From Bradyrhizobium sp. CCGUVB1N3 (GTDB lineage: Bacteria; Pseudomonadota; Alphaproteobacteria; Rhizobiales; Xanthobacteraceae), in assembly GCF_024199925.1 (NCBI RefSeq), contig NZ_JANADR010000001.1, positions 5,087,501 through 5,151,500 on the forward strand: DNA of 64,000 nucleotides, written 5' to 3'. The position numbers and the translations under genes are program-made. Each line of letters opens with the position of its first letter. Within the stretch, counting starts at the first letter, position 1. Shown in pieces: positions 16,882 to 51,246 of the stretch. The notes below the pieces were generated by a model, which saw only the letters and a program-made list of their open reading frames with translations, was not told the DNA's origin and did no database searches.

Positions 16882-17005
16882 TGCGGCTTTAGCCTTTCGA
16901 AGTGGAATATGCCGATGGCACAGCTGTTGTCTGAGACGATCAGTTTGCAAACAATCGAGGTTCGGCAAATCGATTATCAGTGCAGAGTTTCTTGGCTTCT
17001 CGCGA

Positions 17006-17677: not shown

Positions 17678-17711
17678 GAAACTTTCTCCAAAGACTTATC
17701 GAGAAAACTCG

Positions 17712-18689: not shown

Positions 18690-18763
18690 GACATCCTCTT
18701 GAGCGAGCGCCGATCCGGATCGGCCGTCGAGCTCGCGCGATTAGGTTCAGAGATCTCCAAACT

Positions 18764-19909: not shown

Positions 19910-20073
19910 GCGCCTACTCGTCGTTCCTATGAAAGCAACCATCGCTTTCGTTTCCGGCTGGCTTCCGCATTTTCATCCAAACGTGATCGATTGAACCCGT
20001 CGCGCACGACTTCGACAAAGCTTCGATTTCATCTGCTGTCGAAAGCATGCGCGGCGGTTCTCTGCGTGGGGGT

Positions 20074-21282: not shown

Positions 21283-21302
21283 ATGAAGTCTCCTTGTGAG
21301 TT

Positions 21303-22322: not shown

Positions 22323-22324
22323 GA

Positions 22325-23203: not shown

Positions 23204-23216
23204 TGTCCCGGCTCCC

Positions 23217-23926
<710 letters not shown>

Positions 23927-23930
<4 letters not shown>

Positions 23931-24706: not shown

Positions 24707-24760
24707 TTGCCTCACTTGAACCATGCTCTACCCCAAAACGCCGGAGCACCGGCACTCTCT

Positions 24761-26916
<2,156 letters not shown>

Positions 26917-26929
26917 GGAACAATTCCTT

Positions 26930-30700: not shown

Positions 30701-30724
30701 GCTTATCTTTCCTGTCTTCGAGGT

Positions 30725-31900
30725 TCAAACTTCGATTGCCATCGCGGTCGCTTCGCCGCCGCCGATGCAAAGGCTGGCCACGCCTCGCTTGAGACCGCGC
30801 GCCTTGAGCGCAGCGAGCAAGGTGACAATGATGCGCGCGCCGCTCGCGCCGATGGGATGGCCGAGGGCGGTCGCACCGCCATTGACGTTGAGTTTCTCAG
30901 CCGGAATATCGAGTTCGCGTGCGGCGATCATCGCTACCACGGCAAACGCCTCATTGATCTCGTAGAGATCGACGTCGGCGGCCGACCACCCGGCCTTGGC
31001 GAGCACCTTCTGGATTGCGGGCACCGGGGCGGTCGTGAACAGAGCCGGCGCGTGGGCGTGAGCAGCGTGCCCCCGGATCGTCGCGGCGATCGGGAGCCCC
31101 AATCTCTCGGCGATGCTTCGGCGGGTCATTACCAGGGCGGCAGCTCCATCGGAAATGGACGACGCGTTGGCAGGAGTGATCGTGCCGTCAGGAGCAAACG
31201 CCGGCTTCAGGAAAGGAATCTTCTCCGGCTTCGCCTTTCCGGGCTGCTCGTCGGTATCAGCGACCGATCCAGTTTTGGCTGCCGCCGGCAGGGCCACTAT
31301 CTCATCAGCGAATGCTCCGCCTGAAATTGCGGCCTTGGCCCGGTCCAGGGACCGGAGCGCATATTCGTCCTGCGCAACGCGACTGAACTGAAACTCGCGC
31401 GCAGCATCTTCCGCGAAGACGCCCATGGCCTTGCCTGGAGTGTACGCATCCTCCAGTCCGTCCATCATCATCGTGTCGATGATACGGTCATGCCCGATGC
31501 GCGCGCCGCCGCGATGCTTGGGTAGCGCATACGGCGCGTTCGTCATGCTCTCCATGCCGCCCGCGACGACAACGTTCGCGGAGCCCACCGCAATCGCGTC
31601 GTGAGCCAGGATCGCGGCTTGCATCCCGGAACCGCACATTTTGTTGACGGTCGTTGCCTGAGCGCTGAGAGGCAACCCCGCCCCGAGCGCAACTTGTCGA
31701 GCGGGAGCCTGACCAAGAGCGGCCGGCAATACGCAGCCCATGACCACTTGGTCTACGTTTTCCGTCGCGACGACGGCCCGTTCGACCGCCGCCTTCACTG
31801 CTGCAGCACCCAGCTCGGTGGCCTTGAAGCGAGCGAGCGACCCCTGGAACGACCCGATGGGCGTACGTGCGTAGCTCGCGATGACAACTGGATCGGACAT
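30725..31900 (-). CDS. acetyl-CoA C-acetyltransferase (thiolase)
   Basis: Thiolase of 391 residues resembling PhbA/AtoB. Nucleophile Cys in VNKMCGSGMQAAILAHDAI (about residue 90), NEAFAVV, His in GHPIGASGARIIVTLL and second Cys in SLCIGGGEATAMAIE are present. ATG 31900 with GAGGAGCG upstream replaces a longer frame opening at 32011 that overlaps the next gene. It is 24 bases upstream of the SDR gene and 29 bases downstream of the acyl-CoA dehydrogenase gene in the transcription direction. It probably performs the final C4 cleavage to two acetyl-CoA. Confidence 0.91.
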   Translation of the reverse strand: MSDPVVIASYARTPIGSFQGSLARFKATELGAAAVKAAVERAVVATENVDQVVMGCVLPAALGQAPARQVALGAGLPLSAQATTVNKMCGSGMQAAILAHDAIAVGSANVVVAGGMESMTNAPYALPKHRGGARIGHDRIIDTMMMDGLEDAYTPGKAMGVFAEDAAREFQFSRVAQDEYALRSLDRAKAAISGGAFADEIVALPAAAKTGSVADTDEQPGKAKPEKIPFLKPAFAPDGTITPANASSISDGAAALVMTRRSIAERLGLPIAATIRGHAAHAHAPALFTTAPVPAIQKVLAKAGWSAADVDLYEINEAFAVVAMIAARELDIPAEKLNVNGGATALGHPIGASGARIIVTLLAALKARGLKRGVASLCIGGGEATAMAIEV

Positions 31901-31929
31901 AGACGCTCCTCGATGCATTTCGTTGCCGG

Positions 31930-33078
31930 TCACGTTGCTGCCGCGGTTTTCGCAAGATCGCGCGCAATGACCATTCGCTGAATGTCTGATGTGCCTTCGT
32001 AGATCTGGCAAACGCGCACATCGCGGTAGATCTTGGCGACCGCATAATCTTCCAGATAGCCGTAGCCGCCGAATGTCTGTAGCGCGCCGGAAACCACCTC
32101 CTCGGCTGTTTCGGAGGCTACGAGCTTGGCCATCGACGCTTCCTTGAGACAGGGTAGAGCGGCGTCCTTCATCGCGGCCGCATGCAGCACGAGCTGATGA
32201 GCGGCCTCAAGTCTTGCGGCAAGGTCCGCAAGACGAAATCCGACGGCCTGATGCGAGATGATTGGGGCTCCAAAACTCTTGCGCTCGCCCGAGTACCTCA
32301 CCGCCGCGTCAAGAGCGGCGCGCGCCATTCCCACACATTGAGCCGCAATGCCGATGCGGCCGACTTCAAGATTGGAGAGCGCTATGGAGTAGCCCGCGCC
32401 CTCCGGCCCGAGCCGCAACCCTTCTTCGACGAAAACGTCATCGAACCGAAGGGCACAAGTGTCGGACGCCGCCTGCCCCAACTTGCGTTCGACCCTCTCG
32501 ACGCTGTACCCGGGACTATCAGTAGGGACCAGAAAGGCCGAGATCCCGCGTTTGCCCGCTGCAGGATTGGTTACAGCGAATACGATCGCGAGGCCGGCAG
32601 TTCGTCCCGACGAAATGAACTGCTTCGCTCCGTTTAGCTTGTAGCCATCGCCCGCGCGAACGGCGCGCGTCCTCAACGCGGAAGCATCCGAGCCCGCCTC
32701 CGCCTCTGTTAGTGCGAATGCGCCGATCATTCGCCCAGAGATCAGCAAGGGTAGAAATTTCGCTTGCTGCGTCGGCGTACCGTCCTTCAACAAGCCTGAT
32801 ACGATCAGACTGTTCTGAATGCTCAATATCGTAGACAGCGCGCCATCAGCCGCTGCGATCTCGATGAGTGAGGCCGCATAGGCCACGTAGTCCGCACCAG
32901 CTCCGCCGACAGCATCGGGAGCCGTCATTCCCATCAGACCAAGACTCGCGAGCTCTTCAAATAGCTCCGGCGGGTACCCATTGGCTTCTTCGTACTCGCG
33001 GGCGCGGGGAGCAATCCGCTCCTGAGCAAACTTGCGCACCTCGTCGCGGATGGCGGCTTGAGTTTCGTTCAGGATCAT
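31930..33078 (-). CDS. acyl-CoA dehydrogenase (short/branched-chain type)
   Basis: First gene of the minus-strand array; 382 residues. Motifs: FALTEAEAGSDASALRTRA, NGAKQFISSGRTA, NLEVGRIGIAAQCVGMARAALD, RKSFGAPIISHQAVGFRLAD, QTFGGYGYLEDYAVAKIYRD, and the catalytic Glu in VCQIYEGTSDIQRMVIAR. The YEGTS motif places it with classical short-chain/butyryl-type dehydrogenases. A TGA-Y-A-Y-TGACGTCA motif lies 172 bases upstream of its start, shared with the TetR gene promoter, so the whole array is likely TetR-controlled. Confidence 0.91.
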   Translation of the reverse strand: MILNETQAAIRDEVRKFAQERIAPRAREYEEANGYPPELFEELASLGLMGMTAPDAVGGAGADYVAYAASLIEIAAADGALSTILSIQNSLIVSGLLKDGTPTQQAKFLPLLISGRMIGAFALTEAEAGSDASALRTRAVRAGDGYKLNGAKQFISSGRTAGLAIVFAVTNPAAGKRGISAFLVPTDSPGYSVERVERKLGQAASDTCALRFDDVFVEEGLRLGPEGAGYSIALSNLEVGRIGIAAQCVGMARAALDAAVRYSGERKSFGAPIISHQAVGFRLADLAARLEAAHQLVLHAAAMKDAALPCLKEASMAKLVASETAEEVVSGALQTFGGYGYLEDYAVAKIYRDVRVCQIYEGTSDIQRMVIARDLAKTAAAT

Positions 33079-33601
33079 GACGAAGCTCCCGCCGAATATC
33101 CGCCAATGACGGGTAGACGGCGAACGAGTGCGACCGCGCCATGAACGAGGGAGCGAAGCAACGAAATAGCTGATTTCATTGAGTTTTGCGCCGATTTAAT
33201 CGGCTCCTCCCCTGTCGAAATCCCGCGCTTCTGCATCGGCGGATAAAAGTGATATTGACGTCATATTACCGATCATCCGTCCCGTCAAGGCTTCGCGCGG
33301 ATGCTGCGAGCCAAACGCGTGGCACTTTGGGATGATGACCGCTCGATCGCGCGCTTATGGCCCTGGGCGGCATTCACGACGATGCGCAACGCACCTGCTT
33401 GGCCGCCGCACGCAGTCGCATCGATGGCCGATCGCGGCCCAACCGAATAGTCGATGCGGCAATTTAAGACGGCATGATGCTAGAGCGAGCAAGCAAGACA
33501 GACCAATTGAACCCACGCACAGCAGCGAGCTGGCGACTGGATCAATCGATGGCGATAGGCTGCCGGCTGCGGATACAATCCGAAATTTCGGTGAGGCCGC
33601 C
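33079..33601. other. long leader/promoter region without a convincing gene
   Basis: This 523-base stretch holds the probable promoter of the minus-strand beta-oxidation array and the operator-like motif at 33250-33263. Frames here lack homology. It ends at the zinc-ribbon gene, which reads in the same (minus) direction. Confidence 0.5.
33250..33263. promoter_or_regulatory. putative TetR operator, site 1
   Basis: TGATATTGACGTCA at 33250-33263, 172 bases upstream of the first acyl-CoA dehydrogenase gene of the minus-strand array. Read on the other strand it is TGACGTCAATATCA; the same element with two substitutions is found at 34628 and with two at 49844. It has inverted TGA/TCA ends. Confidence 0.6.
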
Positions 33602-33793
33602 TCAATCGCGCATGGCTCTCGTGCACGGTTCGATTGTCAGGCGGTAGGCAACTAACTTGCTACCGTCGAAAACTTCCAGGGAGGAATCGCAGACCGGACA
33701 GCGGTACTCGCCTATTTCGCCCGGCCGTGACGATAATTCGAGACGTCGAAAACCAGCGCCGCACTCAGGACAAACGACGTCGCTCTTTTTCAT
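33602..33793 (-). CDS. small zinc-ribbon protein
   Basis: A 63-residue protein with two CxxC knuckles, VVCPECGAGFRR (residues 8-11) and YRCPVCDSSLEVF (residues 32-35), enough to bind one zinc ion. The remainder (GSKLVAYRLTIEP) is beta-like. Small proteins of this design are common and largely uncharacterised in Bradyrhizobium-type genomes. It lies between the array promoter and the TetR gene, on the same strand as tetR and separated from it by 107 bases. No function is assigned. Confidence 0.68.
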   Translation of the reverse strand: MKKSDVVCPECGAGFRRLELSSRPGEIGEYRCPVCDSSLEVFDGSKLVAYRLTIEPCTRAMRD

Positions 33794-33900
33794 GTCACAC
33801 CGGCCTCATGCTGCGAGATGATATTTCTCTAACCGCCGATGCAGCCAAGCGGAGCGACTTCCGCCTTGCTACCGGAAACCAGCGTTCGTGGACGCACGCC

Positions 33901-34575
33901 CTAGTTTGGAGCAGGCGAATCTTCTTTGACCGCGCCAAACACACCTCGGTACCAGATCTTCGCGCAGTGCGATCCTATGTGCTCGACCTCGGCGTCACTT
34001 GGATCTTCCGAGGCGAGATCAAGCTTCATATAGGAAACCTGCTCCATCGTAGCGCCGAGCACTTCGGCAGCCATTTCAGGATCGAGTTCGCGACCTAGTT
34101 CGCCTAGCCCTTGAAGCCGTGTCAGCCAGGTGGAGGTACGCCTAACGAAGCGGCTACGTTCCGTGACATAGAGAGACAGAAATGTCGCCTTCTCGCCGCG
34201 AGCGGCCGCCTCCCGCATGACACGCAATAACTTACGATGCCGGGCATAGATCTTGAGATAAGCGATGGTATTCTCAACGAACTCTGCTTCGGTTGCCTTC
34301 AACGAGCGGCCAATCCTGCGTTTGCTTGCGACGTAGATCTCGTCGACCAGCGGCTTCAACACGGCCAGCAGAATTTCGTCCTTGTTTCGAAAGTGCCGAT
34401 AGAAGTTGCCGTAAGACGTGCGGGCAATCTTGACAATGTCCTCGACCCGGGTGGCCTCATACCCCTTGCGCGCGAATACACGCGCCGAGGCGTTGAGCAG
34501 CCGCTCACGCATCGCGGCCCCCTTCGCTGTCGCGGGGGCCAGCGGCTCTAAAGCAGAATCATCGGTCTCCAGCAT
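33901..34575 (-). CDS. TetR-family transcriptional regulator
   Basis: About 224 residues from ATG 34575; a GTG at 34608 is an alternative. The N-terminal helix-turn-helix is canonical: RERLLNASARVFARKGYEATRVEDIVKIARTSYGNFYRHFRNKDEILLAVL (in pieces), with SYGNFYRHF as recognition helix. The helical ligand domain follows (TIAYLKIYARHRKLLRVMREAA). It is divergent from an acyl-CoA ligase gene and shares a promoter motif with that gene, the beta-oxidation array and the 50-kb cassette. By analogy with FadR/LiuR-like TetR proteins an acyl-CoA inducer is likely. Confidence 0.89.
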   Translation of the reverse strand: MLETDDSALEPLAPATAKGAAMRERLLNASARVFARKGYEATRVEDIVKIARTSYGNFYRHFRNKDEILLAVLKPLVDEIYVASKRRIGRSLKATEAEFVENTIAYLKIYARHRKLLRVMREAAARGEKATFLSLYVTERSRFVRRTSTWLTRLQGLGELGRELDPEMAAEVLGATMEQVSYMKLDLASEDPSDAEVEHIGSHCAKIWYRGVFGAVKEDSPAPN

Positions 34576-34627
34576 TTGCCATCCATAGCATCGCGATCCC
34601 TTGACCACTAGCCCGCAATCAGTAATG

Positions 34628-34641
34628 TGACATCAATATCA
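34628..34641. promoter_or_regulatory. putative TetR operator, site 2
   Basis: TGACATCAATATCA at 34628-34641, in the 264-base gap between the divergent tetR gene and the acyl-CoA ligase gene, 20 to 53 bases from the tetR start. It matches the elements at 33250 and 49844 and suits autoregulation plus control of the ligase operon. Confidence 0.62.
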
Positions 34642-34839
34642 GTTCTTGTTCAAGCTCAAACTTCAAGCAAATCAAGGGTAGGAAGAGCAAAAGGCGCTGC
34701 CTGACTTGCCGCCGTAGCCAGTGAAACGCCTTGCAAGCGCAGGCCGACCATAGGCGGTCAGCATCACGAACCCGCCAGCAAATTCCGCTCGATATCAACT
34801 CCGCGTCTTCCTCGGAAGGGCGGCATCCAGGGAGTGATC

Positions 34840-36381
34840 ATGTATCCGGGGACCCATGCACTTACAAATCCGGACCGCCCTGCCCTCATCATGACAGCGA
34901 CCGGTGAGGTCGTGACCTATGCCGAATTGGAGAACCGGTCACGGCGAGTTGCAAATTGGCTCTTCGACGCGGGCCTGCGGCCTGGCGATGTGGTCGGCGT
35001 ACTCTCCGACAATAGCTCTTGGATTTTCGACATCTATTGGGCCACTCAGCGTTCGGGTCTGTATCTGATGCCGATAAACTATCGGTTGAGCTCTGATGAA
35101 GTCGACTACATGCTCGCCAACTCCGGCGCTGCCGCGTTGTTCGTGGGTCGCGGTGGTGTCGAGACGGCCTCAAGACTTGGTACGCACAGCCAGCTCAAGC
35201 GTCGCATCAGTCTCGAAGGGGATCTGCCTGGTTACGAGCCATACCAGCATCTACTGAAAACCGCGCGCGCCACCATGCCATCCTTCCAACCTCGTGGCGC
35301 CGACATGCTGTATTCCTCCGGCACAACCGGCAGACCCAAAGGCGTAAAGCATGCGCTGCCGGAGCGGCAGGTTTCCGATCCAGGCGATACGATGGTGCAG
35401 ATGTTCTCGTCGAACTTCGGTTTCGACGAGAGGACCATCTACTTGTCTCCTGCGCCGCTCTATCATGCCGCGCCGCTGCGAACCTGCGCGACCGTCCAAG
35501 CGCTCGGGGGCACTGCGTTGGTCATGGACAAGTTCGACGCCGAAGCGGCTTTGGCCATCATCCAACGCTACAAGGTGACCCACAGTCAGTGGGTCCCGAC
35601 CATGTTCGTCAGGATGCTCAAACTGCCCGAGTCAGTGCGGGGTCGGTATGACATCAGCAGTTTGCAGGTTGCCATTCACGCCGCCGCTCCGTGTCCCGTT
35701 GAAGTCAAGCGAGAGATGATGACGTGGTGGGGTCCGGTATTGTGGGAGTACTACTCCGCCACCGAAATGAACGGGATGACCGTGATTGGGCCCGAGGAGT
35801 GGCTCAGAAAGCCCGGCTCCGTCGGTCGCGCCGTACTGGGGAAAATTCATATCTGCGACGAGGAAGGCAACGAAGTCCCAATGGGTCAGACGGGTGCCAT
35901 CTATTTCGAACGCGACGGGATGCCGTTTGTCTACCACGACGAGCCCGAGAAGACACAAGCCGCGCAACATCCTGCACATCCGTATTGGACGACGGTCGGC
36001 GATATCGGACACGTCGATGCCGACGGCTATCTGTTCTTGACCGACCGCAAGGCATTCATGATCATCTCCGGTGGGGTCAACATCTACCCTCAAGAGATCG
36101 AGAACGTCCTCGTCATTCATCCTGCGATCGCGGACGTAGCCGTTATCGGTATTCCCGATCCTGAAATGGGCGAACAGGTCAAAGCAATAGTGCAACTCAT
36201 GCCCGGCATCGAAGGCAACGACGACTTGGCGCAAGAAGTCATCGCCTTCGTGAAGGCACGGGTTGCCAGCTACAAGGCGCCCAAGAGCGTCGACTTCGTG
36301 CCCGAAGTCCCGCGATCGCAGACGGGCAAGCTCATGAAGCAGGAGCTGCGCAAGAGGTATTGGCCCGAGAAATCCGCCTAG
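34840..36381 (+). CDS. acyl-CoA synthetase (AMP-forming)
   Basis: ANL-superfamily ligase of 513 residues that activates a carboxylic acid to its CoA thioester. Motifs: P-loop [16 protein letters not shown] (about residue 150), APLYHAAPL, the A5 motif [27 protein letters not shown] and the hinge/C-terminal [15 protein letters not shown] with the catalytic Lys in [11 protein letters not shown]. The ATG at 34840 has AGGGAG 5 bases upstream and is preferred to GTG 34834. It begins the plus-strand unit with the FadJ-like gene and is probably TetR-regulated. The pattern is closest to medium/long-chain and cyclic-acid ligases. Confidence 0.91.
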
Positions 36382-36500
36382 CGACCGCAGTCAAACAATA
36401 AGAATGACGATGTCTAAGCGGGAGCCGAGCGTCAGAGTCGTAAGCGGCACGCGACAGCCGACAGACAATTCAGACGCATCAATTCATAGGCAGCACCGAT

Positions 36501-38045
36501 ATGATCAGCGAGTACATGCAAGATGGCATCCTGATAGCGACCATCGACATGCCTGGTCGCTCGATGAATGTCTCCTCGAACGCGTTGATGTATGAATTCG
36601 AGGTCGTAATCGACCGGGCGAATAGGGATCGCGACGTCCGGGGACTTATAGTGACGTCCGGCAAGAGTTCCTTCCTCGCTGGTGCCGATCTGGAGATGGC
36701 TCGCGCGTACACGAAATTGGGCCTCACCGCGGATCGTGACGAGCTTCAGGCCGTTTGCGGCCGGTTGGGCCGACTATTTCTGCGCCTAGAGACTTTGCCT
36801 AAACCCACGATCGCCGCTCTGAATGGCCTCGCTCTCGGTGGTGGCCTTGAGGTTGCAATGGCCTGCCGTTGGCGGATCGTAGCCGACGACCCCCGGGTGC
36901 AACTTGGGCTGCCGGAAATAAAGTTGGGCTTGATGCCGGGCGGAGGCGGAACGCAACGCCTCCCCCGCCTAATCGGTATCGAACGTGGTTTAGAGTTGCT
37001 CTTGAATGGAAGCTCCGTCGGGCCTGACGAGGCAAAGCTGTTAGGGCTGGTCGATCAAATCGTCGCCAAGGATAATCTGATCGATATCGCCGTCGCTTTC
37101 ACAGAACAAGCGTCTCGACGGCAGCTGCCATCCAAGTTTGCTCCGAGACTGCAGCCCGGACCGTTCAATCTGGAGGATGCTGATATCGTTCGCCAAATCA
37201 CGCGGCATTACGGCCACGGCGACGACGTCACTGCAGACTATCCAGCCTATGACGCTATTGTGCGGAGTGTTGTGGAGGCGCGCGATCTGACGGTGGAAGA
37301 AGGAACGCGCGTCGAATTGAGCCATGTTGTCGAACTCATCCAAGACCCAGTGGCCGGCAACATGGTCTCGACCTTGTTTCTGTCACGTCAACGTGCGAGC
37401 AAATTGCTGGCAGGTGCTGCGACGATCACCCGCTTCGCCGTCGAGGGGACTGACGCCGGTGCGCAAGCGCTTTGCGCGGATCTTCGCGCCTCGGGAGCCT
37501 CCGTTGTCGACCTTTGTCAATCTCAGCCGTCAGACGTACGCATCGTGTCTGGCTCCTATCGCACGGAGAACGAGGCCGATCTCAAAATCCTGAACGCAGC
37601 GCAAGATCGGCGCGAACATTTCATTGGCGTCCACTCCGCGAGTTCGTCCGAGTACGGGCGCGCCCTTGAGATCATAGCAACGCCCGGAGATGATCGCATC
37701 GGCAAGGCGCTTGCTCTGGCTAAACAATTGCGAGCGACGCCCTATATCCATGACGGCGAGCGCTCGCTGTTGGCGATCCTCGCCCTGATAAAGGATCGGG
37801 GCATCACGGAAAACTTCCCGCGCTTACTCATCCTAGCTGCGCAGGCGCTTGCAGCGAACCGACGAGAGGCGCGCAACGAGGTCGGGGATGCCTCTTTGGC
37901 AGATGTTGCCTGTGTGGTGGGCGGCGTGTTCCCCGCCTATTCCGGAGGGCCATTGACTTGGTGGTCGTCGGAGGGGCCTCTTGCTCCAGATATCTTGCGT
38001 TCAGTGGATGGGTTCTTGAGCGGCGGATGGCTCCCTGAAGAGTGA
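36501..38045 (+). CDS. FadJ-like protein with intact crotonase half and degenerate 3-hydroxyacyl-CoA dehydrogenase half
   Basis: 514 residues, against about 700 for FadB/FadJ. The N-terminal crotonase domain (1-190) looks active: GKSSFLAGADLEMA, LGGGLEVAMACRWR and LGLPEIKLGLMPGGGGTQRLPRLIG keep both glutamates of enoyl-CoA hydratase. After a linker, the Rossmann GxGxxG motif expected near residue 300 is missing (the region reads ITRFAVEGTDAGAQAL), and the FFNP block is replaced in FIGVHSASSSEYGRALEII, while the C-terminal ACVVGGVFPAYSGGPLTWW is kept. It probably retains only hydratase/isomerase activity. The 119-base gap after the ligase gene and same strand suggest one operon. Confidence 0.82.
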   Translation: MISEYMQDGILIATIDMPGRSMNVSSNALMYEFEVVIDRANRDRDVRGLIVTSGKSSFLAGADLEMARAYTKLGLTADRDELQAVCGRLGRLFLRLETLPKPTIAALNGLALGGGLEVAMACRWRIVADDPRVQLGLPEIKLGLMPGGGGTQRLPRLIGIERGLELLLNGSSVGPDEAKLLGLVDQIVAKDNLIDIAVAFTEQASRRQLPSKFAPRLQPGPFNLEDADIVRQITRHYGHGDDVTADYPAYDAIVRSVVEARDLTVEEGTRVELSHVVELIQDPVAGNMVSTLFLSRQRASKLLAGAATITRFAVEGTDAGAQALCADLRASGASVVDLCQSQPSDVRIVSGSYRTENEADLKILNAAQDRREHFIGVHSASSSEYGRALEIIATPGDDRIGKALALAKQLRATPYIHDGERSLLAILALIKDRGITENFPRLLILAAQALAANRREARNEVGDASLADVACVVGGVFPAYSGGPLTWWSSEGPLAPDILRSVDGFLSGGWLPEE

Positions 38046-38215
38046 ACGGCTCCTCAGCTCCTGATCTAGTGGCCTGTCGTCGTATAGCGTCGCCCCCCGT
38101 CGTCGGGCATCTAGGCCCTAGCTGCTATGATCGACGTCTCGCTCGCTCAGATGCTCGACGTACGGGCGGCAGGTCGCGCGTTCCGTGGCTTGGCATGCGA
38201 TCGGCCTCGTCCGTC

Positions 38216-38446
38216 TCAGTATCTTCGGTGGCCGACTCTGCCCTTCGCAGGATTAGGTCTGGCTTTTGCCAACGCGTTGCGTTGGAGACACAATTCTTCG
38301 ATTTTCGTCAGCATTCTTTCCACAATTGCCTCCGCCGCGTCGACGCGTATCCCAGCGAGTCGGAGACGGGCGATCTCTCTGCGATGACGCCCAACCTGAA
38401 GGCGCGTGCGATCTATCTCGTGACGTATCGATTCAAGAGTCGGCAT
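38216..38446 (-). CDS. small helical protein, function unknown
   Basis: 76 residues, rich in Arg, Glu, Ala and Leu with heptad-like spacing (IRHEIDRTRLQVGRHRREIARL and AEAIVERMLTKIEELCLQRNAL), predicting a two-helix coiled coil without signal or membrane segment. Similar short coiled-coil proteins are frequent in Bradyrhizobium-type genomes. It lies alone between the FadJ-like gene (convergent) and the mutase gene. The call rests on composition and pattern, so it is tentative. Confidence 0.5.
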   Translation of the reverse strand: MPTLESIRHEIDRTRLQVGRHRREIARLRLAGIRVDAAEAIVERMLTKIEELCLQRNALAKARPNPAKGRVGHRRY

Positions 38447-38522
38447 GATGAGTATTTCTTATGCTCAGAACCAATAGATCGAAGCGCAACCTCAATGTAG
38501 TGGCGGTTTTGGAGCCAGGCCG

Positions 38523-40676
<2,154 letters not shown>

Positions 40677-40723
40677 CGTTTCGTCCATATCGCCGTTGAG
40701 CGCACGAGGCGCAGAATCTTGCC

Positions 40724-42589
40724 TTATACCTGTTCTGTCCGCTGATAGACGCCCTGCAGTGTTGCGAGCGCATCAGTGCCGGCAAAGATGAAGCCGGCGA
40801 CGCCGGCCGCACGCAGTGCCGTCTCCGCTTCGGCTGGGCGGCCTGCCAGATAGGTGTGTCGGCTGCCGGCCACTTGTAACGCCTTAGCTGCGGCTTCCGC
40901 CTGGTCGGCATAGACCTTGTCACTGGAACAGAGGCAGGCAATCGTGGCGCCCGACACCTTGAACGCAGCCGCAAGCTCAGCCGGATCGGTAAAGCCGTTA
41001 CTGTCGACAGCCATAATGCCGCCGGCCTCGAAGAAGCTCTTGGCAAAGGTGGCGCGCGCCGTGAAATCGGCGGGCGTGCCGAGATTGGCGAGGAACACGC
41101 TCGGCCGTGCGCCGTGCGCTTTGAGGGCCGCATCCGATTTGTCGCGCAGCGCCTCAAACGGTTGCGCGAGCCGGATCGGCGGCAGTGCATCGAACTTGTA
41201 TTTCTGCTCGCCGTAAGGCGGAAGCGCGACCGGCGTTGCCTTCAGCACCGCCGTTTCGCTCTCATGCAGGTTCGGAAACTCGCTGGCGCCGGTCAGCACG
41301 TCACGACGCTTGGCGATGTTGGCGTCGCGCGCCTTTCGCGCAGCCGCCACCTTGCTCTGGAACAGGCCCTGCTGAAGCGCGGCGAAGGCGCCGCCGGCTT
41401 TCTCGCTCTCCTGGAACAGCGCCCAGGCTGCGTCGCAGAGCTGCGCCGTCAGTGTCTCGATGCCGCCTGCGCCGGCCGCGGGATCGCTGACCCTGGCGAG
41501 ATTGCTTTCTTCCAGCAGCAGGAGTTGCGTGTTACGCGCCACGCGCCGCGCGAACGGATCGGGCAGGCCGAGCGCCAGCGTATGCGGCAGCACGGTGATC
41601 GCGTTGGCACCGGCAAGTCCCGCCGCGAAGGTCGCGATGGTCGCGCGCAGCATGTTCACGTAAGGGTCGCGCTGCGTCAGCATACGCCAGGCCGTATCGG
41701 CGGCGATGAACAGCGGCTTCGGCGTCAGCCCGCACGCCGTTTCGATGCGCGCCCAGAGCAGCCGCAGTGCGCGGAATTTCGCCATGGTCAGGAATTGGTC
41801 GGCGTCGGCGGAAAGCCGCGCATAGACCATGCCCTGCGCAGCTTCCAGCGGAACGCCGGAGCTTTCGATCGCGCGCAGATAAGCGACGCCGCAGGCCAGC
41901 ACGAAGGCAAGCTCCTGCACCTCGGAGCCGCCGGCATCGTGGATCACGCGTCCGTCGGCGGATGCGAACGGCCCCTTGAAGCCGAGCGCCGCGAGGCCCT
42001 TGATGGCGCCAGTGACGGCGGGAACGATCTCGTCCCATGTGAAGGGGCTGTGGCCCCACACGGCACCGGCCGCGAGCGGATCGAGCCCGAAGCGGATGTT
42101 GCAGGCCGCAGGTGAGAGGCCGTTGCTCTTCACATATTCCGCGACATGGGTCGCGGCCATCCGCGATTGCGGTCCGATCTGAAGTTCGATGCCGATGCCA
42201 GCATCGAGATGGACGTCCTTCAAGACCTTGGCAACGGCTTCAGCCGAAGGTTCCAGACCAAAGCCGTGGGCACCGGCGCCGCCGGCGAACACCAGCGCGA
42301 GCCCCGTCGCGCCGTTCTCCAGATCCTGCAAGGCCTGCGCATTTGCGGCCGCCGCGTCGGGATGGTCGATCCGTTGCATGATCTGCCACGGCGCCGCCGC
42401 GGCCCGTCCGACCACGGGCGAAACGCCCTTGGCGCGCGGATAAAGCGGTTCGATCTTGAGGCCGTCATAGGTCTTGCCGACCAGCTTCTCGAACGGCGCG
42501 CCCTTCAGCACGCCGTCGACCAGCTTGCGCCAGTCCTCGACGGTCGCCTTGGGAAAATCCGCCGCCAGCGGCAGGTCATCCGGCGTCAC
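40724..42589 (-). CDS. mutA: methylmalonyl-CoA mutase, small subunit
   Basis: 621-residue non-catalytic partner of the large subunit. It follows the same fold, with [36 protein letters not shown] and [23 protein letters not shown], but the cobalamin-binding DxHxxG is absent from the C-terminal domain, as in the beta subunit of heterodimeric mutases. It is 80 bases downstream of the AMACR-like gene and 47 bases upstream of the large-subunit gene. The large subunit normally works in heterodimer with it in this lineage. Confidence 0.92.
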
Positions 42590-42669
42590 GGTCTGGGCCC
42601 CCTTTCACATCGGCGCAAAATTCCGGCTCGGGTCTGCACGGCATAGACAATCCCCCTACGAAAATTGAC

Positions 42670-43779
42670 CTACTGGCAATTCTTCCAGGAGCCCATGATC
42701 GCCGCGAGCGACAGTTCTTCTGGGTCGCGGGCCATTGAGGGTGTCCTCGAGAACCGCGGCGCCGGAGCAGGCTGTAGAATTCCATGGCGCAAAAGAAAGA
42801 CCTCCCGCGAAACCATGTGCTCGTGGCGCGAGGCTTCCGTCATCGTCAAGACCGGAGCGAAGCAAATGTCGGTCCCTTCCATGATCTTGCACCACTCCTC
42901 GCGCGTCTTGCTCTTGAAAACTGCCGCAAGTCTTTGCTTCAGCTTTGGCCAGGCTGCGGCATCCATCTGAGCATCGAAGTCAGGATCAAGCAGGCCTGCA
43001 TGCTGTCGCAACAGCGCGTAGAATTGCGGCTCGATGGATCCAATCGAAACAAAATTGCCGCAAGCGCATTCGAAGACACCATAGAAATGCGCCCCTCCGT
43101 CCAGCATGTTTTGCTCGCGGCCTTCCACCCAGTCCCCAGTAGCGCTCATGTCGAAGAACATGGTCATCAACGAGGCTGCTCCGTCGCACATTGCGGCGTC
43201 CACGACTTGTCCCCGCCCCGACGTCTTCGCTTCCATCAGCGCCGCAAGAACTCCGACGATGAGATAGAGGGCACCTCCGCCGAAATCACCGACCAGATTG
43301 AGTGGCGGGATCGGCCTTTCGCGTGTACCGATTGCGGCGAGCGCGCCCGTGATCGAAATGTAGTTGATGTCGTGACCCGCTGCGTTCGCGAGGGGACCAT
43401 GTTGACCCCAACCGGTCATCCGCCCGTACACAATTCGAGGATTGCGGTTGAGAATAACGTCGGGACCTAGCCCGAGGCGCTCCATCACGCCCGGACGGAA
43501 GCCCTCGATCAGGACGTCCGCCGTACCGAGAAGCTCGATGACATCGCCTTTGCTCTTGTCATCCTTCAGGTCGACATCGACCCACTTGCGACCACGCGCC
43601 GCAATTCCCTTCAAATTCCTGGCAGCACCGACACGGTCAAGGGTCACAACCTCGGCGCCCATGTCTGCCAGCATCATGCAAGCGAAGGGGCCGGGACCGA
43701 TGCCGGCGAATTCTACGATACGAACGCCGGCAAGAGGGCCGTTTGCTCCGACCGTCTGCGAGCCCGAAGCAGCTACCAT
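42670..43779 (-). CDS. CaiB/BaiF-family CoA enzyme, alpha-methylacyl-CoA racemase-like
   Basis: 369 residues of the family III CoA-transferase fold. The pattern VRIVEFAGIGPGPFACMMLADMGAEV, FRPGVMERLGLGPD, TGWGQHGPLANAAGHDINYISITGAL and LVGDFGGGALYLIVGVLAAL follows AMACR (2-methylacyl-CoA racemase), including the GHDINY segment containing the His-Asp pair around the active site. It sits between pccA and the mutase small-subunit gene in the same orientation. An AMACR would convert 2R- to 2S-methylacyl-CoA so that a stereospecific acyl-CoA dehydrogenase can act, releasing propionyl-CoA; a CoA transferase function remains possible. Confidence 0.84.
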   Translation of the reverse strand: MVAASGSQTVGANGPLAGVRIVEFAGIGPGPFACMMLADMGAEVVTLDRVGAARNLKGIAARGRKWVDVDLKDDKSKGDVIELLGTADVLIEGFRPGVMERLGLGPDVILNRNPRIVYGRMTGWGQHGPLANAAGHDINYISITGALAAIGTRERPIPPLNLVGDFGGGALYLIVGVLAALMEAKTSGRGQVVDAAMCDGAASLMTMFFDMSATGDWVEGREQNMLDGGAHFYGVFECACGNFVSIGSIEPQFYALLRQHAGLLDPDFDAQMDAAAWPKLKQRLAAVFKSKTREEWCKIMEGTDICFAPVLTMTEASRHEHMVSREVFLLRHGILQPAPAPRFSRTPSMARDPEELSLAAIMGSWKNCQ

Positions 43780-43833
43780 GTGGGATCTCCCATCTGATTT
43801 TCTTGATCGTCGGTTGCTCGTTTAGAGAATGCG

Positions 43834-45849
<2,016 letters not shown>

Positions 45850-45856
45850 AGCTATC

Positions 45857-47389
45857 TCACAACGGCAGATTGTCGTGCTTCTTCGCAGGCATTTCCGTCT
45901 TCTTGTCCTTCAGCATCGCCAGCGCCCGGGCGATGCGCTTGCGGGTCGAGTGCGGCATGATGACGTCGTCGATGTAGCCGCGCTCGGCCGCGATGAAAGG
46001 CGACAGGAAGCGGTCTTCGTATTCCTTGTTGCGCGCGGCGATCTTGTCGGGGTCGCCGATGTCGCTGCGGAAGATGATCTCGACCGCACCCTTGGCGCCC
46101 ATGACAGCGATCTGGGCGGTCGGCCAGGCGTAGTTCATGTCGGCGCCGATCTCCTTGGAGGCCATGACGTCGAAAGCGCCGCCATAGGCCTTGCGGGTGA
46201 TGATGGTGACCAGCGGCACGGTGCACTGTGAGTAGGCGAACAACAGCTTTGCGCCGTGCTTGATCAGGCCGCCATATTCCTGCGCGGTACCCGGCAGGAA
46301 GCCCGGCACGTCCACGAAGGTGACGATCGGGATGTTGAAGGCGTCGCAGAAGCGGACGAAGCGCGCGGCCTTGCGCGATGCGTCGCTGTCGAGCACGCCG
46401 GCCAGCACCATCGGCTGGTTGGCGACGAAGCCGACGGTGCGGCCGGCGATGCGGCCAAAGCCCGTGACGATGTTCTTGGCGAACATGTCGGCGATCTCGA
46501 AGAAATCGCCCTCGTCCACGACCTTCAGGATCAGCTCCTTCATGTCGTAGGGCTTGTTCGGATTGTCGGGGATCAGCGTGTCCAAGGACATGTCGACGCG
46601 GCCGATGTCGTCGAAGCTCGGCCATTCCGGCACGCCGTCGGTGTTGTTGGACGGCAGGAAGTCGATCAGGCGCCGCATCTGCAGCAGCGTCTCGACGTCG
46701 TTCTCGAAGGCGCCGTCCGCGATCGAGGAGCGCGTGGCGTGCACCGAGGCGCCGCCGAGCTCTTCGGCCGTGACGACCTCGTTGGTGACGGTCTTCACCA
46801 CGTCCGGGCCGGTGACGAACATGTAGCTGGTGTTCTTCACCATGAAGATGAAGTCGGTCATCGCAGGCGAATAGACGTCGCCGCCGGCGCAGGGGCCCAT
46901 GATGACGGAGATCTGCGGGATCACGCCGGAGGCCAGCACGTTGCGGCGGAACACGTAGGAATAACCGGCGAGCGCGGCAACGCCCTCCTGGATGCGGGCG
47001 CCACCCGCGTCATAGAGGCCGATGATGGGCGCCCTCGCCTTCATCGCCATGTCCTGCAGCTTTGTGATCTTCAGCGCATGGGTCTCGGACAGCGAGCCGC
47101 CGAACACGGTGAAGTCCTTGGCAAAGACAAAAGTCTTGCGGCCGTTGACGGTGCCCCAGCCGGTGACGACGCCGTCGCCGGGGATCTTGTTCTTCTCCAT
47201 GCCGAACTCGGTGGAGCGATGCTCGACGAACATGTCGAACTCCTCGAACGATCCCTTGTCGAGCAAGAGCTCGATGCGCTCGCGCGCGGTCAGCTTGCCG
47301 CGGGCGTGCTGGGCCTCGATGCGCTTCTCCCCGCCGCCGAGCTTGGCGCCGGCGCGACGAGCCTCGAGCATTTCGATCACTTCAAGCAT
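45857..47389 (-). CDS. pccB: propionyl-CoA carboxylase, carboxyltransferase subunit
   Basis: Carboxyltransferase beta subunit, 510 residues, normal length. Oxyanion motifs are [23 protein letters not shown] and the later [27 protein letters not shown]; the propionyl-type markers [17 protein letters not shown] and [35 protein letters not shown] are present. Its ATG overlaps the 3' end of the frameshifted bioY by 8 bases. A 33-codon piece of a second pccB-like N-terminus is found at 49662-49760. The gene pair is next to pccR, the expected regulator. Confidence 0.95.
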
Positions 47390-47974
47390 CGGCTTGGCCT
47401 CGCCCGTTGTTCGTCCAACCTCGTGAGAAGTGGAATGCGAGGGCGACTGCAGTCACTTTCAGCAAGTCAGCGATGATGAATGGAAAGAAGCCGAGCCGAA
47501 GCAGTGGTGCATCGAACCCGATGACGATCCCAAGCCATAGGAGACCCGAAACATAAATAGTTGCCAGGAAGACCCCGGCGCTCGCTACGATCGACAGGAA
47601 TGAGCCATTCCGATCACGCTCAGCGAGGTAACCAGCCAACAGCGCTGCCGGGAGACAAGCGAGCAGGTAGCCACCCGTCGGTCCCAGAATGTAGGCGAGA
47701 CCGATGCCCTTTTCGGGAGAGCCGGCAAAGACAGGAAGCCCTGCAATGCCCTCGAAAAGATAGGCGAGTACGGCAAGACTGCCTCGGATCGGACCGAGGT
47801 TAGGCTGATGCCGAAGACCACGAAGGTCTGCATGGTCATTGGCACCGGAAAGAACGGGACCTGAACCTTCGCTGAGACGGCAATGAGCAGCGAAGCGCTT
47901 ACGATCATCGCCAAGTCGAAGCTAATGCGGCGCGGTGCGCTGCGGAGCACGCCAGGATTGTAAATGATCATCAT
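47382..47974 (-). pseudogene. bioY: frameshifted bioY biotin transporter gene
   Basis: Two frames together make one BioY (ECF-transporter S component for biotin). From ATG 47974 the frame reads SASLLIAVSAKVQVPFFPVP, MTMQTFVVFGIS; the continuation is in another frame as LGPIRGSLAVLAYLFEGIAG, LPVFAGSPEKGIGLAYILGP, TGGYLLACLPAALLAGYLAE, then LRLGFFPFIIADLLKV to the stop at 47382. The break lies between about 47795 and 47812. Its position before pccBA is logical, because the carboxylase needs biotin. The shift may be real inactivation or an assembly error. The 3' end overlaps the pccB start. Confidence 0.8.
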
Positions 47975-48062
47975 GAGCTCGATTGGAGAACGGAGCGGTC
48001 TCCGTACGAGGCAAAGCGCCTCCGCGAAAGGCTTGAAGAGGCACAGCTGCACATGATACAAA

Positions 48063-48092
48063 TTTGCAAAACGCAAATTGCGAAGCTGCAAA
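48063..48092. promoter_or_regulatory. TTTGCAAA-type site, likely PccR (ScfR) operator
   Basis: TTTGCAAA at 48063-48070 is followed by GCAAA at 48073, a degenerate ATTGCGAA at 48077-48084 and GCAAA at 48088. Tandem TTTGCAAA sites separated by a few bases are known targets of PccR in Rhodobacter sphaeroides. The cluster abuts the pccR start (48096) in the gap that divides it from the divergent bioY-pccBA operon, fitting autocontrol and control of pcc. Confidence 0.6.
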
Positions 48093-48095
48093 AAA

Positions 48096-49502
48096 ATGTC
48101 GACTGGCAAGCTCTATATCGGACGAAGGGTTCGCGAGGTCCGCGAAGCGGCGAAGCTTACCCAGACAGCGTTCGCGGAAAGATTAGGTATTTCAGTCAGT
48201 TATATAAATCAGATCGAGAACAACCAGCGATCGGTCTCGGCATCGGTTTTGGTTCTTCTGGCCGAGCGATTTGGGATAGACCTGAGTTCCATATCGACGA
48301 ACGACGGCGATCGGCTCATCGCAATACTATCGGAAGCATTGGCCGATCCCGTCTTCTCCCCCCACTCCCCCAGCCTCCAGGAGCTGAAGCTCGTCGTTCA
48401 GAACGCACCTAGCTTTGCGCAGGCGCTGCTCAGTTGCCATCAGGCCTACCGGCGCAATAGCGAACAACTCGCAAGCCTGGATGACCACATCGGCGGCTGG
48501 AGCACCGAACCGACCCCCTATGAGGAGGTTCGCGACTTCTTTCACTTCACCGACAACTATGTTCACGATCTCGACGTCTCAGCCGAGAGTCTGGCGCTTG
48601 AGCTCGACATCGCCAACAGCGACGCAAACGCAGCGCTCGCGAAGCACTTGGAGAACCAACACGGCGTGCTGATCCGGAGAACGGATCCTGGCGATAGCTT
48701 CTTGAGGCGCTTCGACCCTACATCACGAATCCTCTTCTTGAGCCCATATCTGCCTGCCGCGACACGCAGCTTTCAAATGGCGCTTCAGATCGCTGCGCTT
48801 GAGCAGGAAGACCAGATCGAAAAAATTGCGAAACGTGCCGAGTTTCGCACTGCTGACGCGCGCGAGGTGTGCAAGGCTGGCCTGCGGAATTATTATGCGG
48901 GAGCGCTGATCCTGCCGTATCAGCCATTCCTCACAACTGCGAAAGAGTTGCGCCATGACCTTGACCTGATCGCTGCCCGCTTCGGTGCGAGCATGGAGCA
49001 GGTTGCCCACCGGCTCTCCACGCTACAACGGCCGGGTCACAAGGGCGTGCCGGTTTTTTTCGCGCGTGTCGACCGCGCCGGAAATATCACAAAGCGCCAT
49101 AGCGCGGCGAAATTGCAGTTCGCGCGCTACGGCGCAGCGTGCCCACTATGGAATGTGCATCAGGCGTTCGAGTCACCGAGCCGCATCATTCGGCAGCTCG
49201 CCGAAACACCGGACGGCGTGCGCTTTCTCTGCATTGCGACCGAACTCGCTAAGGGCCACGGTGGGTTCGGAACACTGCGGCCGCGCTACGCGATCGCCCT
49301 TGGATGTGAAATCTCCTACGCACGAGATTTCGTGTATGCCGATGGACTCGATCTGACGAGCAAAGGCGCTTACGATCCGATCGGAATCTCTTGCCGCATC
49401 TGCGAACGTGCGGATTGCGCGCAGCGCGCGGTTCCTCCATTGAAAAGCAGGTTGACCGTCCACCGCAATCGGCGAAACGTTTTGCCATATGAGATTTCCT
49501 AG
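48096..49502 (+). CDS. pccR: short-chain acyl-CoA regulator PccR (XRE + IrrE-like)
   Basis: 468-residue regulator. An XRE helix-turn-helix occupies residues 6-65 (REAAKLTQTAFAERLGISVSYINQIENNQR); a middle section contains the IrrE/ImmA-like segment, and the C-terminus has CRICERADCAQRA, a Cys-rich block typical of the ScfR family (PccR, MccR, AceR). In Rhodobacter, PccR senses propionyl-CoA and controls pccB and the mutase. Here it diverges from exactly such an operon. ATG 48096 is chosen because homology begins at MSTGKLYIGRRVRE; a TTG at 48078 is in frame but lies inside the motif cluster. No good ribosome site is visible. Confidence 0.87.
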   Translation: MSTGKLYIGRRVREVREAAKLTQTAFAERLGISVSYINQIENNQRSVSASVLVLLAERFGIDLSSISTNDGDRLIAILSEALADPVFSPHSPSLQELKLVVQNAPSFAQALLSCHQAYRRNSEQLASLDDHIGGWSTEPTPYEEVRDFFHFTDNYVHDLDVSAESLALELDIANSDANAALAKHLENQHGVLIRRTDPGDSFLRRFDPTSRILFLSPYLPAATRSFQMALQIAALEQEDQIEKIAKRAEFRTADAREVCKAGLRNYYAGALILPYQPFLTTAKELRHDLDLIAARFGASMEQVAHRLSTLQRPGHKGVPVFFARVDRAGNITKRHSAAKLQFARYGAACPLWNVHQAFESPSRIIRQLAETPDGVRFLCIATELAKGHGGFGTLRPRYAIALGCEISYARDFVYADGLDLTSKGAYDPIGISCRICERADCAQRAVPPLKSRLTVHRNRRNVLPYEIS

Positions 49503-49540
49503 GTCCCGAGTACCGGCCGCTGACCTCTGCGTGAGACTCG

Positions 49541-49658
49541 AAGCGAGACCTAGAGGCGTCAATTCGGGTTGGCGTTTGACAGGCCTGCGAGAACGTTGGG
49601 AACGGAGCGAACTTTCTCGCGCGTAGGACAATCCTGACCGCCCGGATCACGCCGGACA
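49541..49658. repeat. degenerate direct repeat, copy 1
   Basis: About 118 bases resemble 54181-54302 in the same orientation, roughly four of five positions by eye. Shared blocks include TCAATTCGGGTTGGCG, GCGAGAACGT, and ACTTTCTCGCGCGT. On the minus strand both encode a short tail ending NANPN or GANPN and a stop, which suggests 3' ends of a decayed gene or dispersed element. The two copies bracket the cassette 49.8-53.9 kb. Confidence 0.75.
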
Positions 49659-49661
49659 CAC

Positions 49662-49760
49662 CCGCTTGCCGCGGCCATGCTGGGCCTCGATGCGCTTCTC
49701 GCCGCCGCCGAGCTTGGCTCCGGCGCGCCGAACTTCGAGCTTGTCGATTGCGGCAATCAT
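49662..49760 (-). pseudogene. fragment of a pccB-like gene (N-terminal 33 codons)
   Basis: On the minus strand from ATG 49760: [20 protein letters not shown] then [12 protein letters not shown]. The intact pccB starts [20 protein letters not shown] and continues [12 protein letters not shown], so this is a copied or decayed N-terminus of an acyl-CoA carboxylase beta subunit. It stops abruptly beside repeat copy 1. It starts about 2.2 kb from pccB, on the far side of pccR. Confidence 0.82.
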
Positions 49761-49843
49761 CAGCCGCACCTTCACGTTAGGAGCGAGTTGAGAACACACA
49801 TACGGGGAGCGTGGGCTTGACCAAAAGTCCAACTTTAGTAACA

Positions 49844-49857
49844 TGACGTCAGTGTCA
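49844..49857. promoter_or_regulatory. putative TetR operator, site 3
   Basis: TGACGTCAGTGTCA at 49844-49857, upstream of the binding-protein gene at 50032, matches sites at 33250 (TGACGTCAATATCA on the other strand) and 34628 (TGACATCAATATCA). It lies within an AT-rich stretch likely to be the promoter of the 50-kb cassette. Confidence 0.6.
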
Positions 49858-50031: not shown

Positions 50032-51246
50032 ATGCGTGGTTTGATATTTTTTGCCGTCGCCGCTGGCATCACAATCGGTTCGCAGGAAGCATTGGCCCAG
50101 AAGCAGTACGGCCCGGGCGCGAGCGACACCGAGATCAAGATTGGAAATATCCTGCCCTACAGCGGGCCCGCTTCCGCCTACGCCATCGTGGGAAAGATCG
50201 CTTCTGCCTACGTGACGATGATTAACGAAAAGGGCGGAATCCACGGACGGAAGATCAATTGGATCTCGTATGACGACGCCTACAGCCCGCCGAAAACGGT
50301 CGAGCAGGCCCGCAAGCTGGTTGAAAGCGACGAAGTCCTATTCCTCTACCAGACGCTCGGTGTTCCGCCGAATCTTGCCATCATGAAGTACATGAACCAG
50401 AAGAAGGTGCCGCAGCTCATGCTCGCCACCGGGGGCACGAGGTTCGGCGAGGATCCGAAAGCGTTTCCGTGGACGATGCCCTTCAATGCATCCTATCAAT
50501 CGGAAGGTCGGATCTATGCAAAATGGGTTCTGAAGGAACATCCCGCCGCGAAGGTGGCCGTCCTCGTTGCCAACGACGAGTACGGCAAGGACATTTACAA
50601 AGGCGTCAAGGATGGGCTCGGCGACAAGACCTCGATGATCGTCGCTGAGGCGACCTACGACTTTAGCGACCCCACGATCGATTCGCAGATCGTCAAGCTG
50701 AAGGCGTCAGGAGCAGATTTGCTTCTGAATCTGAGCCAACCCAAGTTTGCCGCGATGGCGATCCGGAAGATGGGCGAGCTGGATTGGAAGCCTGTCCATA
50801 TCCTCAACAACGTTTCGAGCTCAGTAGGAGCGGTGATCAAACCGGCCGGCTTCAGCTACGCGCAAGGCATCATCAGCGCAGGTTATTACAAAGACCCGAC
50901 GGACCCGCGTTGGAAAGGGGACCCTGGCATTCAGGAATGCGAACGCTTCTTGCAGAAGTACGCACCTGATGCAGACCGCAATAGCAGCCTCGTCACCTAC
51001 TCCTATGCAGCTCTTCAAACACTCCAATATATTCTCGAGCAGGCGGGGGACAATCTGACCCGGGAGAACATCATGAAGGTCTCAGAAAGCCTGAATGGTT
51101 TCGCACCCTCGACTTTGCTCCCCGGAATCACTCTCAACACGTCGCCTACCGATCATTTCCCGATCGAACAGATGCAGTTGATGAAATTTGAAGGAGACAA
51201 TTGGGTCACTTTTGGTCCGATCATCGAAGGCAAGTTGTCCAACTAG
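50032..51246 (+). CDS. orphan HAAT-family ABC transporter substrate-binding protein
   Basis: Periplasmic receptor, 404 residues, clearly paralogous to the Liv-linked receptor at 20074-21282 (shared GGIHGRKINWISYDDAYSPP, VEQARKLVESDEVL, VGAVIKPAGFSYAQGIIS and more). A signal peptide ends at ALA-QKQY near residue 23. AGGAGG lies about 10 bases before the ATG. No permease or ATPase genes follow. Because site 3 resembles the operator of the Liv-containing array, the two receptors probably share LivHMFG. Downstream are a flavoprotein and an acyl-CoA ligase on the same strand. Confidence 0.88.
   Translation: MRGLIFFAVAAGITIGSQEALAQKQYGPGASDTEIKIGNILPYSGPASAYAIVGKIASAYVTMINEKGGIHGRKINWISYDDAYSPPKTVEQARKLVESDEVLFLYQTLGVPPNLAIMKYMNQKKVPQLMLATGGTRFGEDPKAFPWTMPFNASYQSEGRIYAKWVLKEHPAAKVAVLVANDEYGKDIYKGVKDGLGDKTSMIVAEATYDFSDPTIDSQIVKLKASGADLLLNLSQPKFAAMAIRKMGELDWKPVHILNNVSSSVGAVIKPAGFSYAQGIISAGYYKDPTDPRWKGDPGIQECERFLQKYAPDADRNSSLVTYSYAALQTLQYILEQAGDNLTRENIMKVSESLNGFAPSTLLPGITLNTSPTDHFPIEQMQLMKFEGDNWVTFGPIIEGKLSN

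Follow-up and report, generated by a model that had tools for sequence, protein, structure and literature searches.

A probable TetR regulon at three promoters of an acyl-CoA catabolism cluster in Bradyrhizobium sp. CCGUVB1N3

Bacillus FadR, KstR2 and PsrA are TetR-family repressors of acyl-CoA catabolism. A gene cluster with a comparable regulator was analysed in a stretch of 64,000 nucleotides from Bradyrhizobium sp. CCGUVB1N3 (C1:5087501-5151500, referred to as the window), where three promoters share the 20-base element GTAAYRTGACRTCARTRTCA. As with FadR, KstR2 and PsrA, the TetR encoded in the window carries a TetR_N domain, its gene lies beside catabolic genes and a short operator is repeated at several pathway promoters. 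Unlike them, it scored far below every NCBIfam equivalog cut-off listed. GTAAYRTGACRTCARTRTCA is not known to resemble any operator of this family, although no search of an operator database was made.

The lva operon of Pseudomonas putida (levulinate) comprises the kinase LvaA, the ACAD-type lyase LvaC and the ligase LvaE (PMC12440821, PMC11342911). The cluster in the window is similar in combining an APH-type kinase and an ACAD10/11-type protein with acyl-CoA ligase and other beta-oxidation genes. It differs in its far larger size, in its Liv-type uptake and in the adjoining regulator, a TetR instead of LvaR, which a published abstract names as the levulinate-responsive regulator of P. putida. 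An SDR and two ligases were also assigned to the cluster by Pfam. The cluster was not classed as an lva operon because its adjoining regulator is a TetR; LvaR is of the sigma-54 type. Mammalian ACAD10/ACAD11 provide a further comparison. Both halves of ACAD11 are matched with diagnostic residues, but kinase and dehydrogenase are separate proteins here, encoded by genes lying side by side. Among the literature matches listed, none described a TetR that regulates a pathway of ACAD10/11 type or an operator of this kind in Bradyrhizobium. The predicted TetR regulon is new; the kind of system is well known.

Sequence, rarity and distribution of the shared element

The first-pass annotation had described a 14-base motif at 33250-33263 (TGATATTGACGTCA), 34628-34641 (TGACATCAATATCA) and 49844-49857 (TGACGTCAGTGTCA). 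All three sites were found at these coordinates. The 14-base match held, whereas its 14-base limit did not: the element extends over 20 bases inside a promoter cassette. It consists of the earlier 14 bases and six further upstream bases, which read GTAATA, GTAATG and GTAACA with the sites oriented alike (operators 1 to 3, Table 1). Pairwise, the three 20-mers were identical at 15-18 of 20 positions. Their flanks matched at chance level, with 25-29 of 96 positions upstream and 49-59 of 164 downstream, which rules out a recent duplication of one promoter.

The strain's own genome (10,444,098 bases) was scanned for the motif using the 20-base pattern. At up to three mismatches it contained six matches, the three operators without mismatch and three others with three mismatches each, so that fewer than three mismatches occurred only at the operators; the reversed-pattern control gave no match. 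Perfect matches to the 14-base core numbered three and were all located at the operators. The 20-base pattern was built from the same three sites that it then finds; independent tests were a cross-genome matrix and co-occurrence with tetR.

To build the matrix, we used 16 tetR-proximal sites (13 distinct 28-mers) at other loci and excluded both the window and G197, its nearest relative. This training set holds orthologs of operator 2 and no positional counterparts of operators 1 and 3. Within the window, the three highest scores fell at 33244-33271 (44.2), 34620-34647 (44.0) and 49836-49863 (32.5), followed by 15.1 at an intragenic place and then 5.0. The maximum in 10.4 Mb of third-order Markov sequence was 20.6. 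The earlier statement that no other intergenic gap in the window has the element was borne out, as the next-best place (25390-25417, 15.1 versus 32.5-44.2) is intragenic. It represents a weak operator match on the minus strand inside an NMO gene, with three mismatches, and recurs only in G197 among the 16 tetR genomes described below. For these reasons it was set aside as a fourth operator.

The genus sample comprised 265 genomes, of which 16 had tetR (E at most 1e-30) and 249 did not. With at most one mismatch, the element was present in 15 of the 16 tetR genomes and in none of the 249 others. The last tetR genome, G015, showed one match with two mismatches. Single matches with two mismatches were also seen in eight tetR-less genomes, and the reversed control matched in 5 of the 265. 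Related genomes are not independent samples, and no probability was put on the co-occurrence. A family sample of 391 genomes from 47 genera, with seven first-look candidates scored per genome, contained tetR at E at most 1e-20 in six genomes, all Bradyrhizobium; remote relatives may be missed with this number of candidates.

Nineteen other regions, consisting of 17 tetR neighbourhoods and two separate operator-3 regions, were mapped with 31 window proteins. Gene order was retained across them as far as genes survive. Operators in the relatives lie just upstream of tetR and ahead of the same structural genes as in the window. Counterparts of operator 1 precede the orthologous first-dehydrogenase gene, and in 13 loci 164-172 bases separate the operator from the start of the array's first gene. 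Nearly the whole array was present in G238 and in the first copy of G260. G082 and G177 lack the genes for Liv permease and ATPase as well as some enzymes. The most distant tetR carriers, G214 and cajani (TetR 74% identical), have a reduced cluster with one operator, which precedes the gene orthologous to that of binding protein 20074. Orthologs of binding protein 50032 (92-100%) were detected in four of the 265 genomes including this one, each with tetR and with an operator in front; its next-best match was 62% among the matches listed (sorted by E-value).

Some clusters were in decay. The ligase, the first dehydrogenase or both were fragmentary in G030, G031, G032, G033, G034, G035 and G111 (L116, L098-L105, L036, L037). 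These seven genomes still have tetR and one or two operators, and in four of them (G030, G031, G032 and G034) the binding protein and dehydrogenase 17712 remain full-length. Here the repressor seems to outlive part of the pathway. In G260 (L110-L113) the tetR cluster occurs twice, at a distance of about 105 kb; one copy is nearly complete and the other partly decayed, the latter with two mismatches in the operator and a changed -35 box.

Promoter architecture and the TetR regulator

Alignment of the regions revealed CTTGAC upstream of the operators, a feature absent from the first-pass annotation. In 35 of the 36 site placements a TTGAC starts 19-22 bases ahead of the element; only the second copy of G260 departs from this. 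Operator 2 has the arrangement CTTGAC-N17-TAATGT and operator 3 CTTGAC-N17-TAACAT, the -10 hexamer lying within the operator. Comparison of G214 and cajani with the window showed seven of seven identical positions in CTTGACC and 17 and 16 of 20 in the element; identity dropped to 5 of 15 for the spacer and to 21-23 of 100 for the downstream sequence. The Sinorhizobium sigma-70 promoter is given as CTTGAC-N17-CTATAT in PMC2873474. Operators 3 and 2 are similar to this form in CTTGAC followed after 17 bases by TAACAT or TAATGT. They differ from it in that the -10 box is not CTATAT and is part of the operator, and operator 1 differs in its spacing of 15 bases.

The TetR_N helix-turn-helix was recognised with PF00440 (E 3.5e-15, 55.9 bits versus a cut-off of 24). 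The start of tetR is most likely ATG 34575 and not position 34608. Three orthologs have an in-frame TAA at most five codons upstream of the equivalent ATG, and two distant orthologs match only from a point downstream of it. Between GTG 34608 and ATG 34575 of the tetR frame lies the -35 box that belongs to the ligase promoter. Operator 2 sits 46 bases ahead of this ATG, a layout that is the same in relatives. Judged by profile and structure searches, TetR is without a close characterised relative; all NCBIfam matches were far below their cut-offs, the best being the ScbR model with 55 bits versus 150, and the best PDB match had an E of 7.2e-10.

One local TetR repressor very probably controls the three promoters of its own cluster. 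The TetR protein would bind GTAAYRTGACRTCARTRTCA at each of them. The element is predicted to begin at the -10 box of a promoter of sigma-70 type (CTTGAC, then TAAYRT) and to extend across the presumed transcription start. Since it covers both, TetR bound there would obstruct RNA polymerase. In the absence of substrate, silencing would extend to tetR, the first ligase, the cassette of binding protein, NMO and ligase, and the array for uptake and beta-oxidation (17 kb). An acyl-CoA derived from the substrate would release TetR. Uptake, activation and breakdown of one acid would thereby probably be switched together by one repressor. The TetR regulon suggested in the first-pass annotation is thus backed by the co-occurrence of element and tetR (15 of 16 versus 0 of 249), the conserved placement and the -10 overlap, along with the restriction of a competing regulator, ScfR, to few tetR genomes.

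Table 1. Coordinates of operators, promoter boxes and genes in the window.
Feature	Position	Strand	Remarks
Operator 1	33250..33269	-	GTAATATGACGTCAATATCA; 171 bases ahead of start codon of acyl-CoA dehydrogenase 31930-33078, head of leftward array
Operator 2	34622..34641	+	GTAATGTGACATCAATATCA; between divergent tetR and acyl-CoA ligase genes
Operator 3	49838..49857	+	GTAACATGACGTCAGTGTCA; ahead of substrate-binding protein 50032-51246
-35 box TTGACG (C before it: CTTGAC)	33283..33288	-	Begins 19 bases upstream of operator 1; conserved in alignment
-35 box TTGACC (CTTGACC)	34601..34606	+	Begins 21 bases upstream of operator 2; kept 7/7 in G214 and cajani
-35 box TTGACC	49817..49822	+	Upstream of operator 3; pattern scan and alignment
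-10 box TAACAT	49839..49844	+	Inside operator 3
tetR (predicted repressor gene)	33901..34575	-	PF00440; start moved to ATG 34575 (GTG 34608 in the list of open reading frames)
Leftward array	16105..33078	-	Pfam; presumed transcript extent, from gene order
Acyl-CoA dehydrogenase, first array gene	31930..33078	-	After operator 1
APH-type kinase, ACAD11 kinase-domain relative	27703..28818	-	Predicted 4-hydroxyacyl-CoA kinase
Acyl-CoA-dehydrogenase-fold protein, ACAD10/11/LvaC type	28767..29942	-	Predicted phosphate elimination
Acyl-CoA ligase (AMP-binding)	34834..36381	+	Under operator 2
Crotonase-family protein, 514 aa	36501..38045	+	After ligase
Periplasmic substrate-binding protein	50032..51246	+	First gene under operator 3
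NMO-family enzyme	51328..52299	+	After binding protein 50032-51246
Second acyl-CoA ligase	52377..53933	+	After NMO-family enzyme

Genes under the operators and the predicted substrate

Genes were annotated from 16 kb of the window upward, most genes past 60 kb excepted. According to Pfam, the leftward array encodes enoyl-CoA hydratases, a nitroreductase, a zinc-type alcohol/quinone dehydrogenase, three acyl-CoA dehydrogenases, a Liv-type ABC transporter with binding protein, an NMO-type enzyme, two thiolases, an APH kinase and an SDR. Genes for propionyl-CoA carboxylase and methylmalonyl-CoA mutase adjoin (propionyl-CoA block, 38523-47389), and no operator lies ahead of this block within the window. 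The earlier proposal had placed transport, activation and degradation under one repressor. It was supported for the uptake genes, the ligases and the array and not for the propionyl-CoA block, which has no site; the regulon therefore cannot be taken to span the whole stretch from 16 to 54 kb.

The leader between operator 1 and the acyl-CoA dehydrogenase gene (33079-33249, minus strand) contains GGGGAGGAG. It shows a small inverted repeat, GCCGAT-TAA-ATCGGC (GCCGAG-CAA-CTCGGC in L034), followed by the ATG of a frame of 33-34 codons. The terminating TGA of this frame shares bases with the start codon that follows (ATGA/GTGA). Frame and ATG occur together in nine of 13 loci, with a variable peptide sequence. 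Translational coupling, with a hairpin between ribosome site and start, is possible. Downstream of the crotonase gene, a 152-aa frame (38042-38500, plus strand) had no Pfam match and was partly conserved after the ligase and crotonase genes of related genomes, at 55-88% along part of the frame.

The acid is rather likely to pass through a 4-hydroxyacyl-CoA, which would make it a 4-hydroxy or 4-keto acid. This prediction comes from the kinase and dehydrogenase of ACAD10/11 (LvaA/LvaC) type that are paired in the array. Together with ligase and thiolases, this pair predicts breakdown via 4-hydroxyacyl-CoA as in the lva operon of P. putida. The kinase 27703-28818 matched ACAD11 (8v3v) with an E of 1.8e-77, second only to 3dxp. 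Its HGDFRCDN aligns with HGDFKLDN of ACAD11, and the catalytic D220 and N225 are kept. The match of 28767-29942 to the ACAD11 dehydrogenase domain was second to 4hr3, with RLSPARLSHCMR and the D of RIYDGPTEVH aligned with ACAD11 R626, H634-C-M-R637 and D753. The ACAD11 arginine, HCMR motif and aspartate are reported in PMC12440821 to be required for, and specific to, elimination of the 4-phosphate. The other two acyl-CoA dehydrogenases of the array had no match to the HCMR-type motif in the same pattern search. The adjoining propionyl-CoA block would be consistent with a substrate broken down to propionyl-CoA.

The regulon might instead serve an ordinary fatty or branched acid, the pair having drifted to another hydroxyacyl-CoA, which would make the 4-hydroxy assignment wrong. 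This is possible, albeit the less favoured reading of the substrate. The relationship of 28767-29942 to ACAD11 is distant (E 3.5e-53), and the best PDB match of this protein, 4hr3, is a 'putative acyl-CoA dehydrogenase' that is uncharacterised. There are relatives at 75-81% in 26 tetR-less genomes; of the four examined, three had none of the other 30 query window proteins matched alongside, and the fourth was that of G090. The decayed second copy in G260 has kept this gene without the kinase. Against drift, the phosphate-elimination residues R626, H634, R637 and D753 are kept, and the kinase gene is the direct neighbour in the window and in all seven mapped regions that hold both genes. The 4-hydroxyacyl-CoA route nevertheless has to be weighed against two further observations: two proteins encoded elsewhere in the same genome have an active-site motif closer to that of ACAD10/11, and a beta-oxidation cluster this large may accept several acids. 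In G090 (L182), a related pair of kinase (61%) and dehydrogenase (81%) occurs alongside Liv genes and without this tetR. A frame nearby, which we take to be HxlR-like, suggests another regulator there.

Other readings of the element and significance of the cluster

TetR may be an activator or dual regulator, or may sense the free acid or an unrelated effector rather than an acyl-CoA. Some TetR-family proteins do activate (FasR, labelled activator), and the lack of a close characterised relative (NCBIfam far below cut-off, PDB matches at E 7.2e-10 or weaker) leaves room for such a role. The element overlaps the -10 region and extends downstream, however, which is a typical position for repression, and this reading appears unlikely.

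Reading of the element by a different regulator is still less probable. Candidates were the ScfR/RamB-type protein 48078-49502, a LysR at 55167, an IclR at 56168 or a regulator encoded elsewhere. The ScfR gene lies just before operator 3 and its product carries a short-chain fatty acyl-CoA regulator domain; RamB was its best NCBIfam model (453 bits versus a cut-off of 700). Its distribution rules it out as reader of the element: orthologs (96-100%) were present in only three of the 16 tetR genomes, whereas the other 13, with best matches of at most 42%, still have the element. In G260, operator 3 lies between a divergent carboxylase gene and the binding protein gene, with no ScfR gene between operator and carboxylase gene. 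The LysR at 55167 was matched in one of the 19 mapped regions (G197). A genus-wide regulator should leave elements in the 249 tetR-less genomes, none of which had one at up to one mismatch.

Chance similarity of the three promoter regions, for which the 311 genome matches of the 14-base core at up to two mismatches (61 for the reversed control) and the modest excess of its loose form in the window could be cited, is ruled out for practical purposes by the rarity of the 20-mer in the genome, the co-occurrence with tetR, the ranking by the cross-genome matrix, the chance-level flanks and the conservation at distant loci.

Repression of the three promoters by the local TetR is therefore retained, and several observations weigh against it. 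The loose 14-base core was only modestly above chance in the window, with 26 matches at up to three mismatches compared with a shuffle mean of 16.6, and 3 of 100 shuffles reached 26; the case becomes clear because of the extension to 20 bases. The element is weakly symmetric (best dyad score 0.56). Positions 5 and 17 were complementary in 10 of 15 distinct 20-mers, which may suggest pairing. The 36 site placements stem from related genomes and hence are not independent events. At operator 1, the gap between CTTGAC and TAATAT measures 15 bases (16 in two relatives), compared with 17 at operators 2 and 3, which leaves the -10 box of operator 1 uncertain. A sigma-70 pattern scan of 33050-34900 returned no promoter; the same simple scan picked up one promoter, at operator 3, and the others emerged from the alignment. 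The structure model of TetR was poor (pLDDT 44, alignment of 12 close sequences) and did not inform on the ligand.

Taken as a whole, the locus may represent a dedicated TetR repressor with an operator that doubles as -10 element, governing the complete route of a 4-hydroxy or 4-keto acid from uptake to oxidation via a phosphorylated acyl-CoA and sensing a 4-hydroxy(phospho)acyl-CoA, in a rare accessory Bradyrhizobium cluster whose repressor and operators outlast a decaying pathway. This combined picture is tentative. The analysis turns a motif seen by eye into a testable regulon with exact operators, promoters and a regulator. The substrate would be narrowed to a chemical class, acids degraded via 4-hydroxyacyl-CoA, which leaves a few candidate acids that could be tried directly.

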